Of a stretch of 58,538 nt of DNA, positions 2,056 to 9,455 are shown in pieces. The position numbers and the translations under genes are program-made. The notes under the pieces were generated by a model. It was not told where the DNA came from, did not search any database, and saw nothing but the letters and a program-made list of their open reading frames with translations. Within the stretch, counting starts at the first letter, position 1; each line of letters starts with the position of its first letter. The stretch is from Gemmatimonadota bacterium (GTDB taxonomy: Bacteria; JBHIER01; G020348925): contig CP070758.1 in the NCBI GenBank assembly GCA_020348925.1, forward strand, positions 4,132,948-4,191,485. The letters are read 5' to 3'.

Positions 2056-3732
2056 ATGGAAGAAATTCGCATAGGTGTTTTCGTCTGCAACTGCGGCACC
2101 AATATCGCCGGTTTTCTGGACACGAAGGCCGTGGCCGAGTACTCCAAGAAACTGCCCCACGTGGTTTTCACCAGAGAAAACCTCTACTCCTGTTCCGAGG
2201 CCGGCGTCACGGACATCAAGAACGCCATTATCGAAAATAAGCTCAACCGGGTTGTGGTGGCGGCCTGCACGCCCCGGACCCACGAGCCCCTCTTCCGGGC
2301 TTCCTGCGAGGAAGCGGGCTTGAATCCCTTCCTCTTCGAGTTCGTCAACATCAGGGAGCAGGATTCCTGGGTCCATAAGAACGAATGGGAGAATGCGACT
2401 GACAAGGCCAAAGATCTCATCCGCATGGGTGTAGCCCGGGCGGCCTACCTCGAGCCGAAGAAGGCCATCATCGCTGACGTTGAGGAGAAGGCGCTCGTCA
2501 TGGGCGGTGGCATATCCGGGCTGAGCGCGGCCCTCTCCCTGGCCGATCGTGGGTTCAAGGTCTATCTGGTTGAAAAAGAGAAGGAACTCGGCGGAATTCT
2601 GAGAAACATCTACCGCATATACCCCTCGAACATCGATGCCGCGGACCTGTTGGCACAGAAAATTGGTGCTGTGAAAGAACACCCCAAAATCGACGTGTTC
2701 ACCTCCTCCGAAGTGTCGGAGGTGAAGGGGTACATCGGCAAATATCAAATCACTATCGAACACAAGAGGGGCAAACCGAAGCAGCTCAATGTGGGCGTAA
2801 TCATTGTCGCCACCGGCGCCTCCGTCCTTGTTCCCGAGGATATGTACAATTACGACGGAAAGAATGTGATCACCCAACTCGAACTTGAACAAAGATTGAG
2901 GGATAATAGTTTCGACGCACAGAACGTGGTCATGATCAAATGCGTCGGGGCGCGGGTGCCGGAACGGGTCTACTGCTCCCGCATCTGCTGCATGACGGCC
3001 ATCAAAAACGGGATAATCATCAAAGAAAAAAATCCAAACGCAAAGGTTTTTATCCTCTACCGCGACCTCATGTGCTACGGCGACGACAACGAGGAGTTGC
3101 TGCGCCAGGCCAAGGAGCACGGTATCCGTTTCGTCGGTTACTCGCTGGAGCATCCGCCGGTTGTCGAGAACGGTACGGTGAACGTTCGGAGCAGCCTCCT
3201 GGGCAAGGAATTGTCCCTCGAGAGCGATTGTGTCGTGCTGGCCACGCCCATAATACCCCAGTCAGGTTCCGGGACCGTCTCGAAGATGCTCAAGGTACCT
3301 CTCGATGAGACGAAATTCTTTTTGGAGGCCCACATCAAACTCCGGCCCGTGGATTTCGCCACAGATGGTATCTACATCTGCGGCACGGCCCACTGGCCGG
3401 CGGCCACCAATGAGAGTGTTGCCCAGGCTTTAGGGGCAGCAGCCCGGGCTTCCATTCCGCTGACCAACAAACAGGTGAACGTCGAGCCCATCGTCTCCAT
3501 GCTTTTCGACGAGGATCTGTGCCGGGGCTGCGGCATGTGCGCCTATCTCTGTCCCTACGGGGCCATTGAAATGATCGAGACGGAGAAAGGCACCAAGGCC
3601 AAAATGATCGAGGTCGCCTGCAAGGGCTGCGGTGTATGCGGGGCCACCTGTTACAAGCGGGCTATTAAGATGAGCCATTACACGAACGAACAGATCGAGG
3701 CCCAGATAGAGGCGGCGTTTGAAGAGAGATGA
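2056..3732 (+). CDS. HdrA-like FAD/iron-sulfur protein, long form with C-terminal ferredoxin domains
   Basis: 558 residues, ATG start. Domains in order: an HdrA N-terminal domain with FVCNCGTNIAGFLD (about residues 8-21) and the AACTPRTHEPLF block; a Rossmann FAD site, GGGISGLSAALSLADRG (about 153-169); the IKCVGAR and CSRICCMTAIKNG block; a closing FAD segment; and two 4Fe-4S motifs, CRGCGMCAYLC and CKGCGVCGATC, in the last 70 residues. It is a complete long HdrA that could wire a flavin to ferredoxin-type clusters. Unlike the upstream HdrA it has no cysteine or Sec at the position after the FAD site (NIYRIYPSNIDAADLL), so the two HdrA proteins are not interchangeable. It lies 150 bases after the first hdrA, with the repeat at 1948-2035 between them. 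Confidence 0.9.
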   Translation: MEEIRIGVFVCNCGTNIAGFLDTKAVAEYSKKLPHVVFTRENLYSCSEAGVTDIKNAIIENKLNRVVVAACTPRTHEPLFRASCEEAGLNPFLFEFVNIREQDSWVHKNEWENATDKAKDLIRMGVARAAYLEPKKAIIADVEEKALVMGGGISGLSAALSLADRGFKVYLVEKEKELGGILRNIYRIYPSNIDAADLLAQKIGAVKEHPKIDVFTSSEVSEVKGYIGKYQITIEHKRGKPKQLNVGVIIVATGASVLVPEDMYNYDGKNVITQLELEQRLRDNSFDAQNVVMIKCVGARVPERVYCSRICCMTAIKNGIIIKEKNPNAKVFILYRDLMCYGDDNEELLRQAKEHGIRFVGYSLEHPPVVENGTVNVRSSLLGKELSLESDCVVLATPIIPQSGSGTVSKMLKVPLDETKFFLEAHIKLRPVDFATDGIYICGTAHWPAATNESVAQALGAAARASIPLTNKQVNVEPIVSMLFDEDLCRGCGMCAYLCPYGAIEMIETEKGTKAKMIEVACKGCGVCGATCYKRAIKMSHYTNEQIEAQIEAAFEER

Positions 3733-3733
3733 C

Positions 3734-4237
3734 AGATAATAGATAGTAGATGGTAGATTGCAGATATTAGATTGTAGATGATTGGAGACATGAGGTGAGT
3801 ATTTTGAATGCAGGATATAAAAAATTGAAAATATACCAACTCGCTCATGAACTGGCCCTTCAAGTTCATAAGATGTCTTTGAAGTTGCCGAAATTCGAAA
3901 TGTATGAAGAAGGTAGTCAGGTCAGACGTTCATCAAAATCCGTATCAAGCAATATTGTAGAAGGTTATTCCCTCAGAAGATACAAGGCAGAATACATTCG
4001 TTACCTTTTTAGAGCATACGCTTCATCTCAGGAAACAGTCGAACATCTCACCTATTTACATGAAACGGAGTCCTTGAAGGATACTCGAATTTATAAGAAG
4101 TTTATAACCAAATATTCTGAATTGAATAAGATGCTTTTCTCATTCATTAGATCAGTAGAAGAAATGCATGAAACAGATTTATTCTCATTTGACAAGGAGC
4201 ATTCCATCAAACATCTGATATCTACTATCTGATATCT
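3734..4237. mobile_element. Inverted-repeat-flanked four-helix-bundle element inserted in the Hdr operon
   Basis: Bases 3734-3751 (AGATAATAGATAGTAGAT) and the reverse complement of 4220-4237 (AGATATCAGATAGTAGAT) match at 16 of 18 positions, bracketing the four-helix-bundle gene and including its stop codon. The 5' flank is also rich in TAGAT repeats. Intervening sequences in bacterial 23S rRNA have the same layout: an S23-family ORF between complementary ends that form a stem. Whether this unit is mobile or is just an inserted gene is inference. Confidence 0.5.
3795..4232 (+). CDS. Four-helix-bundle protein (S23/IVS family)
   Basis: 145 residues from a GTG start at 3795, with GGAG at 3784-3787 as ribosome site. 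The pattern KKLKIYQLAHELALQVHKM...LPKFEMYEEGSQVRRSSKSVSSNIVEGYS matches the small four-helix-bundle family found in rRNA intervening sequences and free-standing in many environmental genomes. The molecular role is not known. It has no evident link to electron transfer and interrupts an otherwise functional operon between hdrA and mvhD. Its codons are AT-rich compared with the GC-rich hdr genes on both sides, consistent with later insertion. Family call is firm; function is unknown. Confidence 0.85.
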   Translation: MSILNAGYKKLKIYQLAHELALQVHKMSLKLPKFEMYEEGSQVRRSSKSVSSNIVEGYSLRRYKAEYIRYLFRAYASSQETVEHLTYLHETESLKDTRIYKKFITKYSELNKMLFSFIRSVEEMHETDLFSFDKEHSIKHLISTI

Positions 4238-4284: not shown

Positions 4285-5082
4285 ATGAGTGAAGACTACA
4301 GACCTAAGATCATCGCCTTCTGCTGCAACTGGTGAGCGTACGGAGCAGCTGATCTCGCCGGGGTAGCGAGAACGCAATATCCAACCGATGTCCGGATCAT
4401 CCGGGTCATGTGCTCGGGGCGGGTCGATCCCGCCTTGGTTATAGATGCATACCTCCACGGGGCAGATGGCGTCTTCGTCGGGGCCTGTCTCCGGGGTGAA
4501 TGCCATTACTCCACCGGAAACCTCGAGGCCGAGGGGAAGATGCTCTTGACCCAAAAAATTCTGAAACAGCTGGGCATTAACCCGGATCGGCTCGTCATGC
4601 GTTGGATGTCCAGCGCCGAGGGGGCCAAGTTCGTCCGCTTCACGACGGAGTTCCAGGACAGTATCAAAGAGCTCGGACCCATGGGTTACAGCGAAGGCAT
4701 CGACAGAAAAGAAATCGAGCTCAAACTGACGGCGGCCAAGAGTGTTGTGGAGAGCAAGAAGGTACGCTGGGTTGTTGGCAAACGGACGGAATTTCTAAAC
4801 GACGGCAACCTCTACGGAGAGGTGTTCACCGAGCACGAGATCAACCGTCTCTTCGAGGAGGTCGTGCTCGACGAATGCATCATTCAGGAAATTCTGATGC
4901 GTACCATGAAGAAGCCGCACACGGTGCACAAATTGTCGGAGCGGATGCATCTCCCGAAATTCAAAGTGCTGCGCCACCTGGCCGACATGAGAAGGATGGG
5001 CCTGGTGAGCCACGTCGGCTTTGACAACAACAGTCCACTCTGGCAGGCCGGAGAAGTGAAAACAGCTGCCGTCTTGAAATAA
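4285..5082 (+). CDS. MvhD-like hydrogenase/Hdr iron-sulfur subunit, selenocysteine-containing (UGA at 4333-4335), with C-terminal winged-helix extension
   Basis: An ATG at 4285 and read-through of TGA at 4333-4335 give 265 residues. The N-terminus FCCNW-U-AYGAADLAG matches the MvhD signature (F-C-C-N-W-C-Y-x-G-A-D), with U17 in place of a cluster-ligand cysteine. Methanogen VhuD proteins are known to carry Sec in this subunit. Residues 1 to about 135 are the MvhD fold, including GADGVFVGAC, GECHY and the MRWMSSAEG block, which passes electrons to the HdrA flavin through a 2Fe-2S centre. The remaining 130 residues contain TVHKLSERMHLPKFKVLRHL followed by ADMRRMGLV, an ArsR-like winged-helix pattern not present in a minimal MvhD (about 140 residues). 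A conventional gene call would start at 4408 and lose the Sec region. No ribosome site of strong quality is seen upstream. Confidence 0.88.
4333..4371 (+). promoter_or_regulatory. Selenocysteine UGA codon plus SECIS-like hairpin in the mvhD-like gene
   Basis: UGA is at 4333-4335. TCTCGC (4353-4358) pairs with GCGAGA (4366-4371) around the loop CGGGGTA, starting 17 bases after the UGA. The distance and a loop containing GGGGU agree with bacterial SECIS features. It is weaker than the hdrA hairpin in stem length. Confidence 0.65.
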
Positions 5083-5084
5083 AA

Positions 5085-5310
5085 TAGAGGTTCCCCTTAT
5101 CAAAGGGACTACCCAAAAAATCCCCCTTATTAAAGGGAGATTTAGGGGGTTGTTAAAATGAAAGAAACACACATTAGTCACTTAGTTTTATATGAACAAT
5201 TGAGATAAATACCTCTCTGTGTCTCCCCTTCATAGGGGAGACAATAAGGAAGTCCCCTTATCAAAGCTTATCCTGAGCCAAGTCGAAAGAGGGGATTCAG
5301 GAAATTGTTG
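5085..5310. repeat. Two dispersed CCCTTT...AAAGGG-type repeats in the mvhD-to-hdrA/gltD spacer
   Basis: Bases 5089-5162 contain CCCCTTATCAAAGGG and CCCCCTTATTAAAGGGAG followed by TTTAGGGGG. Bases 5226-5310 repeat the theme (CCCCTTCATAGGGGAG, CCCCTTATCAAAG...AGAGGGG), with a nested CTTATCCTGAGCCAAGTCGAAAG piece of another short repeat. Related units are at 10160-10230, 12416-12495, 16316-16425 and 17500-17583. They form imperfect hairpins and encode nothing evident. The spacer otherwise looks empty. Confidence 0.65.
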
Positions 5311-5326
5311 AAAGAAAAAACACAGT

Positions 5327-7030
5327 ATGAGTGAAGAAAAGAAAAACGGATCGGTTTTAGTCGTCGGTGCAGGCATTGCGGGCATCCAGTCGGCGTTGGA
5401 CCTGGCCGAGCGGGGGATCAAGGTCTACCTGCTGGATAATGCCCCGGCCATCGGGGGTGCCATGTCCCAGCTGGACCGGACCTTTCCCCATGGCAAACCG
5501 GCCCTGTGCCAGATCAGCCACAAGCTTGACGCTGTCTACCGCCATCCCAACATTGATCTGATAACCAACGCCAATTTAGGACGAATGAAGGGTGAGGTCG
5601 GTAACTTCGAAGTCACCATCCAAAAGGACCCCTTTCGGGTCAACGACAAATGCAACAATTGCGGGGTCTGTGTCCAGGTCTGTCCCATCAAACCCTATGA
5701 TACATTTAATGAAGGACTGACGCTTCGGACTGCCATCGACGTTCAGAACCAGTGTCCTGTACCGCCCATATACAACATCGACAAGGAGACGCCCATCTGC
5801 GTGGAGACCTGCCCGGTCCACATCGACATTAGAAAATATGTAGGTCAGGTGGCCAACGGGCAATTCCTGGAAGCTTTGGCCACTGTTCGAGAGCGGAATC
5901 CGCTGCCGGCCATCTGCGGCCGGGTGTGCAACCATCCCTGCGAGGACGCCTGTAACAGAGGCTGGCAGGATGAGCCCATTGCCATCGACGCGTTGAAGCG
6001 GTTCGTGGCCGACTATGAATTGAAGCTCGCCCGAGAGGGAAAACTTCCCAAGCCCAAGCCGCCAAAGAAGGTCTACAAGGAGAAAGTGGTCATCATCGGG
6101 GCCGGCCCCGCCGGGCTCACCGTGGCCCACGACCTCGCCTTGAAAGGCTACGAATCGACCATTTTCGAGGAAGCCCCTGTCCCAGGCGGCATGCTCTGGC
6201 TGGGTATCCCTGAGTACCGTTTACCACGGGACATCATTCAGACCGAAGTCGATTACATCTGCGACATGGGTGTCGAATTGAAATTGAACACACCCATCGG
6301 TCCTGATCTGACCATCGACGATCTGCTCAAACAAGGTTACAAGGCCGTCTTCATCGGCGTCGGCGCCCACAAGGGATTGAAACTCCGCGTTCCCGGCGAG
6401 GACGATTTTGAGGGTTTTCTTGACTGCATCGTCTTTTTGCGGCGGGTTAATCTTGGCGATCACTCAAAGCCCGGTGAGAAAGTGGTCGTCATCGGTGGTG
6501 GCAACTCGGCCATCGACTCGGCCCGCACGGCCCTCCGTCTGGGCAGCGACGAGGTGACGATCCTCTATCGACGCTCGCGCAAGGAGATGCCGGCCAACCC
6601 GTGGGAGATCGATGAGGCCGAGCACGAGGGTGTGAAGATTCACTACCTGGCCGCACCGGTTGAAATTCTTGGCAAGAACGGGAAGGTCGTCGGCATGAAC
6701 TGCACGCGCATGGAGTTGGGCAAGCTCGACGCCAGCGGAAGGCGCCGCCCCATTCCTGTCGAAGGTTCCGAATTTGAGGTTGAGGCCGACGTGGTCGTTC
6801 CTGCTATCAGTCAGGAGCCTGACATCTCTTTCCTGCACGAGGGACACGGACTGGAGATTTCCAAGTGGAACTCCTTCGTCATCGACTCCCGGACCAAGAT
6901 GACCAACCGGCCAGGTTTCTTCTCCGGTGGCGACGCGGATACAGGACCGTCGGTCGTCATCGAGGCTATTGCCGCCGGCCACGCGGCGGCTAACGGCATT
7001 CACAATTACTTGAGAGAACTGGCAAAATAA
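5327..7030 (+). CDS. HdrA N-terminal half fused to GltD/NfnB-type NAD(P)H:FAD oxidoreductase
   Basis: 567 residues, ATG start. Residues 1 to about 150 match HdrA: VVGAGIAGIQSALDLAERG, then GAMSQLDRTFPHGKPALCQ (only one cysteine where HdrA has DCSMC), then one 4Fe-4S motif CNNCGVCVQVC. From about 155 the chain changes to a glutamate-synthase small-subunit fold: CVETCPVHIDIRKYV and CGRVCNHPCEDACNRG (cluster-binding N domain), GAGPAGL (FAD), PGGMLWLGIPEYRLP, and GGGNSAIDSARTALRLG for NAD(P)H. GltD/NfnB modules move electrons between NAD(P)H and flavin/Fe-S centres. The second half of the HdrA starts the next gene, so the GltD module sits inside a split HdrA. This gives the complex a plausible pyridine-nucleotide port. 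The substrate (NADH or NADPH) is not decided by the sequence. Confidence 0.88.
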   Translation: MSEEKKNGSVLVVGAGIAGIQSALDLAERGIKVYLLDNAPAIGGAMSQLDRTFPHGKPALCQISHKLDAVYRHPNIDLITNANLGRMKGEVGNFEVTIQKDPFRVNDKCNNCGVCVQVCPIKPYDTFNEGLTLRTAIDVQNQCPVPPIYNIDKETPICVETCPVHIDIRKYVGQVANGQFLEALATVRERNPLPAICGRVCNHPCEDACNRGWQDEPIAIDALKRFVADYELKLAREGKLPKPKPPKKVYKEKVVIIGAGPAGLTVAHDLALKGYESTIFEEAPVPGGMLWLGIPEYRLPRDIIQTEVDYICDMGVELKLNTPIGPDLTIDDLLKQGYKAVFIGVGAHKGLKLRVPGEDDFEGFLDCIVFLRRVNLGDHSKPGEKVVVIGGGNSAIDSARTALRLGSDEVTILYRRSRKEMPANPWEIDEAEHEGVKIHYLAAPVEILGKNGKVVGMNCTRMELGKLDASGRRRPIPVEGSEFEVEADVVVPAISQEPDISFLHEGHGLEISKWNSFVIDSRTKMTNRPGFFSGGDADTGPSVVIEAIAAGHAAANGIHNYLRELAK

Positions 7031-7043
7031 AGATATATCGATT

Positions 7044-9455
7044 ATGAAGAAGCCAAAGTTTATTCCTGAATTCAAAGACATCCCGACGAAGCGGAGGAAG
7101 ATGGCGGAGCTCTCCCTGGAGGAACGCCACCTCAGTTTTGAGGAGGTGGAGCTGGGCTTCACCGAGAAGGAGGCGGTTGCTGAGGCGAAGCGCTGCCTGA
7201 GCTGCCGTCGCTGCATCGGCTGCGGCCTGTGTCTGGCCGAGTGCGACCCCCAGGCCATCGTCTACGACCAGAAACCGGAAAAGATCACGCTCAATGTCGG
7301 TGCCATCATTCTCGCTCCGGGATTTGCGGAGTTCGATGCCAAGCGCAAGCGGGACCTGGGCTACGGTAACTCGTTCAACGTCATCACCAGCATCGAATTC
7401 GAGCGCATCCTGAGTCCCACCGGTCCTTACGGTGGTGTCGTCATGCGCCCCTTCGACGGCGAGATTCCGAAGCGTATTGCTTTCATCCAGTGTGTCGGCT
7501 CCCGTGAGGAGGGTCTGGGTGCCAATTTCTGCTCAAACGTGTGCTGCATGTACGCCTTGAAAGAGGCCATTGCCGCCCACGAGAGAATTCCGGATCTGAA
7601 CGTAACCTTTTTCCATCGGGACATCCGCCCGCTGACCAAGGGCTCGGAGGACTATTATCTGAAAGCGAAAAACGATCTCTGCTTCACCTTCAACCGGGCG
7701 AATGTAGATACTATCCAGGAGGATGAGACGACTGGAACCGTCACGGTTGAATACTCGGAGAATGGAACCTCTCAAACTGGCGATTTCGATCTCGTCGTTC
7801 TTTCAGTGGGACTACATACACCCACTGCCGCGAGAAAAGTATTACGCTCGACCCGCATCAGACCGAATAAATACGGTTTCTGCCCGGTCAGTGCTTTTAC
7901 TCCCTTAAATACTCCAAACGAAGGAGTGTATGTCGCCGGCGCCTTCAGCGGTCCCAAGGATATTTCCGAGACCATGGCCCAGGCCAGCGGCGCAGCCGCC
8001 AAGGCCGCGGCCGCTATCTCGGCGAACGGCTCGAGACCCGCACCATCGGAAAAGAGAAAGACAACATTCAAGGATGAAAAAGCACGGATCGGCCTCTTCT
8101 TCTGTCAGTACGGAAATAGCACCCAGGGTAATTTCGATCTTGAAGCGCTGAAAAAACACGCTGAAAAATTGCAGGATGTAATCCACGTCGGCGAAAGTCT
8201 TTACTGCTGCCTCCATCAGGGCAGGCAGGAGATACAAGGCGCCGTGCAGGAGAAAGGCGTCAACAGAATCGTGATAACCCCCTGTTATTCGAAATCCCAT
8301 CATCAGCTCTTCGGAGAACTGGCAGGTGAATTCGGACTCAATCCGGAACACGTCGGAATTGTCGACTTCGGTTTTGGTTGTGGGGATATCGAGGAGGCCA
8401 AAAAGAGCATCGCTCAAGCTATCGAGAACGTCCGGGCAGGAACATCTCAGGAGATAGAGCAGTCAGCACCTGTCCCTGCGGCTTTGGTTCTCGGTGGCGG
8501 TCTCACCGGCATGACGGCCGCCCTCGATGTGGCCGAGCAAGGGTTTGAGGTTCATCTCGTCGATAAGGCGGACACATTCGGCGGACACATGCAGAGTCTC
8601 AGGTATCTCCTCGGTGAAGAAGATCCCATGGAGAAAGTGAAATCGATCATTGAGCGGATTGAAGCCCACGAAAAAATTCACGTACACACACACGCACTCC
8701 TGAAGAAACTCGAGGGTGAAGTCGGACACTTCAAGTCCACTCTTTCAGAAAACGGCACAGAAACTGTTCTCGACCACGGCGTTCTCATTGTCACCACTGG
8801 CGCTTCGACCTACAAACCTGATGAGTTTCACTACGGCAAAGATCAAAACGTTCTAACTCAAACCGAACTTGAGCAGAAATTGAAAGATGGTGAATTCAAG
8901 GGCAAGAACGTCGTCATGATTCAATGCGTCGGATCGCGGGACGAGGCTCATTCTTATTGCAGCCGTATCTGCTGCGAAGAGGCCATCAAAAATACTCACA
9001 AGATTAAAGAGGTGAATACCGAGGCTCAGGTAACAATCCTTCACAGGGACATGAGGGTGTATGGATTCAACGAGGATTATCTCACAGAAGCTGAGGAAAA
9101 GGGTGTCCAATTTATCAGAATGGACGGACCTCCCGACGTGAGCAATACGAATGGTCTGACCGTATCCGTTGTCGATCGATATACAAAGAAAGAGACAAAA
9201 CTCAATCCGGATCTTGTCGTTTTGAGCACAGGACTTGTTCCTTCAGAAAATAACATTGAATTAGCTCGGTTATTAGATATAAAATTGGATAAAGATGGAT
9301 TCTTCCAAGAGGCCGACTCCAAGATGAGACCTGTCGACACGGACAGAGAGGGCATTTTTATCTGCGGCCTCGCTCACTCCCCACAATCCGTGTCCGAAAG
9401 CCTCTCCCAGGCCTCCGCCGCCGCCGGCAAGGTAGGACTCATCCTGGGAAATTGA
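7044..9455 (+). CDS. Tandem HdrA-like FAD/iron-sulfur protein (HdrA C-terminal half plus a second HdrA)
   Basis: 803 residues, starting 13 bases after the HdrA/GltD gene. Residues 1-50 resemble the tail that follows GltD modules (MAELSLEERHLSFEEVELG, then EKEAVAEAKRCLSC). CRRCIGCGLCLAEC is the ferredoxin motif missing from the previous gene, and residues 60-330 are the C-terminal HdrA half (FIQCVGSREE, NVCCMYALKE). A second HdrA follows: IGLFFCQYGNSTQGNFD (about 350), ITPCYSKSHHQLF, a Rossmann site LGGGLTGMTAALDVAEQG (about 484), QCVGSRDEAHSYCSRICCEE, and a closing FAD segment. There are no C-terminal ferredoxins. The layout suggests an ancestral HdrA-GltD-HdrA chain broken into two genes. 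The last gene of the operon; no terminator is obvious after it. Confidence 0.88.
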   Translation: MKKPKFIPEFKDIPTKRRKMAELSLEERHLSFEEVELGFTEKEAVAEAKRCLSCRRCIGCGLCLAECDPQAIVYDQKPEKITLNVGAIILAPGFAEFDAKRKRDLGYGNSFNVITSIEFERILSPTGPYGGVVMRPFDGEIPKRIAFIQCVGSREEGLGANFCSNVCCMYALKEAIAAHERIPDLNVTFFHRDIRPLTKGSEDYYLKAKNDLCFTFNRANVDTIQEDETTGTVTVEYSENGTSQTGDFDLVVLSVGLHTPTAARKVLRSTRIRPNKYGFCPVSAFTPLNTPNEGVYVAGAFSGPKDISETMAQASGAAAKAAAAISANGSRPAPSEKRKTTFKDEKARIGLFFCQYGNSTQGNFDLEALKKHAEKLQDVIHVGESLYCCLHQGRQEIQGAVQEKGVNRIVITPCYSKSHHQLFGELAGEFGLNPEHVGIVDFGFGCGDIEEAKKSIAQAIENVRAGTSQEIEQSAPVPAALVLGGGLTGMTAALDVAEQGFEVHLVDKADTFGGHMQSLRYLLGEEDPMEKVKSIIERIEAHEKIHVHTHALLKKLEGEVGHFKSTLSENGTETVLDHGVLIVTTGASTYKPDEFHYGKDQNVLTQTELEQKLKDGEFKGKNVVMIQCVGSRDEAHSYCSRICCEEAIKNTHKIKEVNTEAQVTILHRDMRVYGFNEDYLTEAEEKGVQFIRMDGPPDVSNTNGLTVSVVDRYTKKETKLNPDLVVLSTGLVPSENNIELARLLDIKLDKDGFFQEADSKMRPVDTDREGIFICGLAHSPQSVSESLSQASAAAGKVGLILGN

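Follow-up and report, generated by a model that had tools for sequence, protein, structure and literature searches.

A putative long-form selenoprotein MvhD encoded beside a selenocysteine-type HdrA in a bacterial gene cluster

Genes of the cluster and the fold of MvhD

The window, by which we mean the whole 58,538-nucleotide stretch of contig CP070758.1 under analysis, opens with a cluster of Hdr-type genes, and the genes of this cluster described here lie on its forward strand. Positions 1–608 encode the C-terminal part of a cysteine-rich (CCG) protein of the HdrB/HdrD/GlpC kind (PF02754, E=8.1e-17). A run of 100 N immediately ahead of the window (L013, 17849–17948) removes the 5′ end of this gene and leaves one CCG domain visible, so that HdrB/HdrC function can be seen only in part; the single-contig genome thus has at least one gap or withheld stretch. 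An hdrA–hdrA pair follows. The product of its first gene (598–1905, 435 codons) matched positions 140–566 of the NF040770 model (E=3.4e-158) and chain 5odc_A (E=8.9e-133); it is devoid of the HdrA N- and C-terminal domains and contains an in-frame TGA at 763–765, read here as a putative Sec56 (NDCSIU); Syntrophobacterales loci that extend over this column likewise have TGA there. The paralogue at 2056–3732 (558 aa, Cys only), recognised by NF040770 and FAD-site motifs, consists of an N-terminal Fe-S part, an FAD part and a C-terminal ferredoxin part, and is 58–60% identical to its Syntrophobacterales homologues. Inserted between this paralogue and the MvhD gene is a gene for a four-helix-bundle protein of the 23S_rRNA_IVP family (3795–4232; PF05635, E=6.6e-24), which probably stands outside the Hdr module.

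Two further genes lie downstream of the MvhD gene. Positions 5327–7030 encode the N-terminal FAD half of HdrA joined to a GltD-type NAD(P)H:flavin module, an HdrL-like arrangement identified by profile matches and 47–52% identical to homologues at the equivalent place in Syntrophobacterales. The gene at 7044–9455 specifies an HdrA-type protein with two HdrA-like parts, recognised by profile matches and FAD-site motifs. Two FAD-site residues to which a central role in bifurcation has been ascribed, Glu and Lys (PMC12054007), are retained in the HdrA of 598–1905, in its paralogue and in both parts of this last protein. The overall order, CCG – HdrA(U) – HdrA – MvhD(U) – HdrA/GltD – HdrA, is conserved in Syntrophobacterales loci, where the CCG gene was checked in L037. 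Segments resembling CCCCTTATCAAAGGG recur in the intergenic region 5088–5300, between the MvhD and HdrA-GltD genes, and may represent a dispersed repeat.

The MvhD gene itself occupies positions 4285–5082, with 265 codons running from ATG at 4285 to TAA at 5080–5082. Its translation contains a sole in-frame stop, TGA at 4333–4335, which forms codon 17 and the last position of a CCNWU motif. The PF02662 (FlpD/MvhD) profile matched residues 9–131 (E=2.9e-50; 169.9 bits against a cut-off of 22.3), delineating an N-terminal MvhD [2Fe-2S] domain, and a winged-helix-like C-terminal extension spans approximately residues 183–255 (HTH_5, E=4.5e-5). The AlphaFold2 model was confident (mean pLDDT 94.3). 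Foldseek matched the N-terminal domain of this predicted structure to the solved MvhD chains 5odc_D, 5odh_D, 8rvu_F and 7bkb_F with target-normalised TM scores of 0.92–0.96; the tail weakly resembled Z-alpha and ArsR-type winged helices. By both domain and fold, the product belongs to the MvhD/FrhD/VhuD (FlpD) family, within which we describe it as a putative long-form selenoprotein.

An in-frame TGA at a conserved cysteine column

The original prediction held that TGA at 4333–4335 replaces a Cys of the FCCNWC signature, and both the in-frame position of the codon and its alignment with solved MvhD subunits bear this out. In 5odc_D, 8rvu_F and 9sw2_D, residue 17 aligns with the final Cys of FCCNWC; in 7bkb_F its counterpart is the equivalent Cys. 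The homologue alignment proposed as a check placed U17 on the Cys/Sec column rather than outside it: of 111 homologues, 109 have Cys or Sec at column 17, and 92 have Cys. Columns 14, 43 and 73 are Cys throughout (111/111) and column 68 is Cys or Sec throughout (111/111); at this conserved set the window protein carries C14, U17, C43, C68 and C73.

TGA was found at column 17 in 17 proteins, namely the window protein, 15 long-form relatives and one copy in locus L072. The long-form relatives are mostly from Syntrophobacterales, include the isolates Desulfoferrobacter suflitae and Desulforhabdus sp. TSK, and are about 41–46% identical to the window protein, reaching at most 46% over its length. 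The window protein and the long-form column-17 proteins formed one group (support 95/84) in a tree built from the N-terminal domain; for this group the tree program flags a meeting of long branches. With 16 other homologues having TGA at this column, and 92/111 having Cys, the position of this codon is beyond chance.

A search for Sec machinery, also proposed as a check, ended in favour of the prediction: instead of a genome without such machinery, we found a tRNA-Sec (65.8 bits, above the cut-off) together with selA, selB and selD, all above cut-off and in one neighbourhood. The selD gene has an in-frame TGA of its own (AGUASK) and probably encodes a selenoprotein itself. Because TGA terminates 10 of the 29 window genes, core genes among them, it serves as a normal stop in this genome.

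The predicted 6-bp hairpin is located exactly where it had been described, 17 bases after the TGA, at 4353–4371; by itself it is weak as evidence. UCUCGC (4353–4358) pairs with GCGAGA (4366–4371) around the loop CGGGGUA, which lies 23 nt from the TGA and has G at its second position. This geometry fits a bacterial SECIS, with an energy of −7.2 kcal/mol. Folding energy carried no information for the downstream region (MFE z = −0.38 for 4333–4385), so hairpins were scored by geometry and compared with those found at Cys homologues, in shuffled sequences and after in-frame codons. Dinucleotide shuffling yielded a hairpin as good or better in 147 of 2000 cases, and 7.8% of in-frame codons in neighbouring genes matched or exceeded it; taken alone, the MvhD hairpin is no better than chance and statistically weak. 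Across column 17, hairpins of −4 kcal/mol or better followed 94% of Sec sites versus 36% of Cys sites, a difference drawn from closely similar, non-independent Sec relatives. The candidate SECIS of the HdrA gene (786–803; GGAUGCC-GGUC-GGCAUCC, 27 nt from TGA to loop) is stronger, with 19 of 2000 shuffles as good, and its stem reappears in compensated form, GGAUGUC-GGUC-GACAUCC, in an HdrA paralogue of this genome.

Two other readings of the codon were considered. Were TGA a true stop, arising in a pseudogene or from a sequencing error in a Cys codon, a shorter protein would start at ATG 4408, which is where the longest open reading frame under translation table 11 begins; the chance-level score of the MvhD hairpin would also fit. 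However, the frame is open both before and after the TGA, the 15 long-form homologues with TGA at this codon stem from numerous assemblies, two or more isolates among them, and a product starting at 4408 would lack the first strand and helix along with the invariant Cys14, so that we regard termination here as very improbable. Reassignment of TGA across the genome, as in genetic codes 4 or 25, would place Trp or Gly at codon 17. The open frame agrees with this reading, and nothing further does: TGA ends core genes of the window, the genome holds a complete Sec system, and the column concerned is one for Cys rather than for Trp or Gly. We consider such a recoding practically negligible. Sec insertion at UGA 4333–4335 is, by contrast with both readings, very highly probable from sequence comparison. 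A practical consequence concerns annotation, in that standard gene callers shorten HdrA and MvhD genes of this type.

Further candidate selenocysteine sites in MvhD and HdrA

The family has a second Sec column, GGUHxGDC at residue 68, where TGA occurred in 38 proteins, including a copy at 1.54 Mb in the genome of the window; L014:9537–9968 and 37 homologues are MvhDs of this kind. At column 68, hairpins at the −4 kcal/mol threshold accompanied 97% of Sec sites versus 7% of Cys sites. The two MvhD Sec sites, CxxU (residue 17) and UHxGDC (residue 68), are thus set apart by subfamily and by hairpin, and their separation makes it testable which position of the cluster gains from selenium. One short MvhD, L072:10893–11342, has TGA at both columns (CTWU and GGUHLGEC) and is unrelated to the long-form group.

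The genome of the window also encodes an HdrA–MvhD fusion (L015:11216–13200; G000:C1:3208215–3210197) with a pair of TGA codons nine bases apart (DUAIU, within FPTMDUAIUILGP), followed by two perfect tandem SECIS-like hairpins. The same double-Sec fusion with tandem hairpins was present in L138 (G136:C9:7737–9701), from a genome related only at the level of the domain; both hairpins are identical in sequence between L015 and L138, and the proteins are 77% identical. In nine single-Sec relatives (L139–L147) the second hairpin is kept and the first is not preserved, which suggests that the double-Sec fusion may use one SECIS per Sec codon.

For the archaeal VhuD Sec column, no TGA was seen among the listed FlpD matches from four archaeal genomes and from 79 genomes of one archaeal phylum. 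The FrhD/VhuD family motif is given as CxxU (PMC13188914), and it is on this motif that column 17 would correspond to the published VhuD/FrhD Sec column.

Proposed function and relation to known systems

In the mechanism we propose, SelB would deliver Sec-tRNA to UGA 4333–4335, with the hairpin that follows this codon as the probable guide, and Sec17 would stand in for one Cys of the CxxC pair within the [2Fe-2S] domain, where it may ligate the cluster. In solved Hdr complexes, MvhD or a homologue with a [2Fe-2S] cluster passes electrons towards the bifurcating HdrA FAD (PMC12350162); the N-terminal domain studied here would likewise carry the MvhD [2Fe-2S] cluster and relay electrons to the FAD of HdrA. 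Its partners would be the Sec-HdrA, the HdrA paralogue, the CCG (HdrB/GlpC-like) protein and the two HdrA-type proteins, one of them with the GltD module. The prediction that MvhD is a second selenoprotein of the same complex stands at the DNA level as regards a second Sec gene in the cluster, with TGA at 763–765; as for the shared complex, gene neighbourhood and the known HdrA–MvhD complexes make association of MvhD with HdrA probable. We put the joint claim, a selenoprotein MvhD working with Sec-HdrA, at roughly 85% on the sequence evidence. A selenium path between the two subunits can be hypothesized.

The likeliest role would be that of a flavin-based complex, soluble and cytoplasmic, that bifurcates or confurcates electrons without a [NiFe] hydrogenase. 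It would pass them between NAD(P)H, ferredoxin and an acceptor at the CCG protein, which may be a disulfide. The GltD module, proposed to react with NAD(P)H (PMC12054007, and as part of HdrL in PMC2702500), points to a pyridine-nucleotide-linked complex, and we judge NAD(P)H-linked bifurcation to have about even chances. The original prediction had likened the locus to the Vhu/Hdr complexes of methanogens, in which a hydrogenase would feed electrons into Sec-MvhD. The family resemblance and the accompanying Sec-HdrA withstood analysis, and MvhD and HdrA homology, together with the frhG–frhA genes that operons of this type contain in S. fumaroxidans (PMC1794560), speak for the comparison. The hydrogenase parallel was not supported: PF00374 (NiFeSe_Hases), the [NiFe]-hydrogenase large subunit, was without a match in the genome, which is 96.3% complete, and the MvhD gene is followed instead by those for HdrA-GltD and HdrA proteins. 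H2 is an unlikely donor via a [NiFe] enzyme because no large subunit was found, and a hydrogenase-fed mode appears improbable; NAD(P)H is the likelier partner of the HdrA/MvhD cluster.

The cluster might alternatively belong to a class II benzoyl-CoA reductase, an enzyme that likewise makes use of selenoproteins. BamDEF consists of HdrD-, HdrA- and MvhD-like subunits, a core trio similar to the cluster in the window. The literature connects BamE and BamF with selenium (PMC5109826, PMC13119186), and six AFOR_C genes are present in the genome. Nevertheless, no AFOR (BamB-type) gene lies in the window, the nearest listed one being about 82 kb beyond its end, and HdrA-GltD proteins stand where the electron-input subunits of Bam would be expected, so this assignment seems slightly less probable still than hydrogenase feeding. 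Returning to the NAD(P)H-linked complex, we tentatively advance a broader proposition, which we consider somewhat doubtful as a whole: MvhDs of the Sec17 winged-helix type would mark a distinct type of Hdr/HdrL module for bifurcation linked to NAD(P)H, lacking a [NiFe] hydrogenase, with Sec at the MvhD [2Fe-2S] site and in HdrA, shared by horizontal cluster transfer between Syntrophobacterales and an otherwise unsampled bacterial phylum, and functionally separate from the commoner UHxGDC-Sec MvhDs.

The impression that the host is a bacterium was correct, and the surprise at such an occurrence was not warranted, as bacterial examples are known from Deltaproteobacteria (PMC1794560, PMC2702500, PMC13188914). 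Bacterial operons with Sec-FrhD/MvhD and Sec-HdrA were described in 2006 from Syntrophobacter fumaroxidans, which has 8 FrhD and 7 HdrA selenoproteins, and from Desulfotalea (PMC1794560); Sec-HdrA and Sec-MvhD of Desulfobacterium autotrophicum followed in 2009 (PMC2702500), and bacterial Sec-HdrA and Sec-FrhD operons have been reviewed (PMC13188914). The glpC-hdrA-frhD-frhG-frhA operons of S. fumaroxidans and Desulfotalea psychrophila (PMC1794560, PMC13188914) share with the window a CCG protein, a doubled hdrA and Sec in both HdrA and MvhD/FrhD, with the genes in the order CCG, hdrA, hdrA, frhD. They differ in that the window has no frhG–frhA, with HdrA/GltD proteins following instead and no frhA-like gene found in the genome, and in that the visible part of the window CCG protein has Cys only. 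In D. autotrophicum HRM2, a Sec-HdrA or a Sec-HdrL (an HdrA/glutamate-synthase fusion) adjoins Sec-MvhD (mvhD1, 2, 3 and 5; PMC2702500), as in the window; the lineage is another one, the HdrA/GltD parts are split differently, and the window HdrA-GltD has no Sec.

The Syntrophobacterales long-form Sec-MvhD clusters (L029–L034, L037, L062, L063, L068, L069, L075–L077 and L091) match the window in Sec column, C-terminal extension, gene order and upstream Sec-HdrA. Their HdrA has an extra stretch, their last gene is shorter, and a short MvhD whose Sec lies at the other column occurs in these loci as well. Methanococcales VhuD and HdrA resemble the pair described here as two selenoproteins of one Hdr-linked system (PMC2933860; PMC11097638), a likeness drawn by description, but have the archaeal type of SECIS and a hydrogenase partner (PMC11227280, PMC2933860). 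The Vhu/Mvh–Hdr complex, like the window cluster, has an HdrA with the FAD-site Glu and Lys. Among the genomes compared, the host lineage has no close relatives and its genome is the sole one of its phylum. Sec-HdrA/Sec-MvhD modules now extend to this bacterial lineage. One MvhD subfamily, with Sec at CxxU and a winged-helix tail, becomes tied to a gene cluster without hydrogenase. Collectively, the window MvhD is a new member of the Sec-MvhD/Sec-HdrA kind known from sulfate-reducing bacteria, set apart from the classical operon by the absence of its hydrogenase genes.
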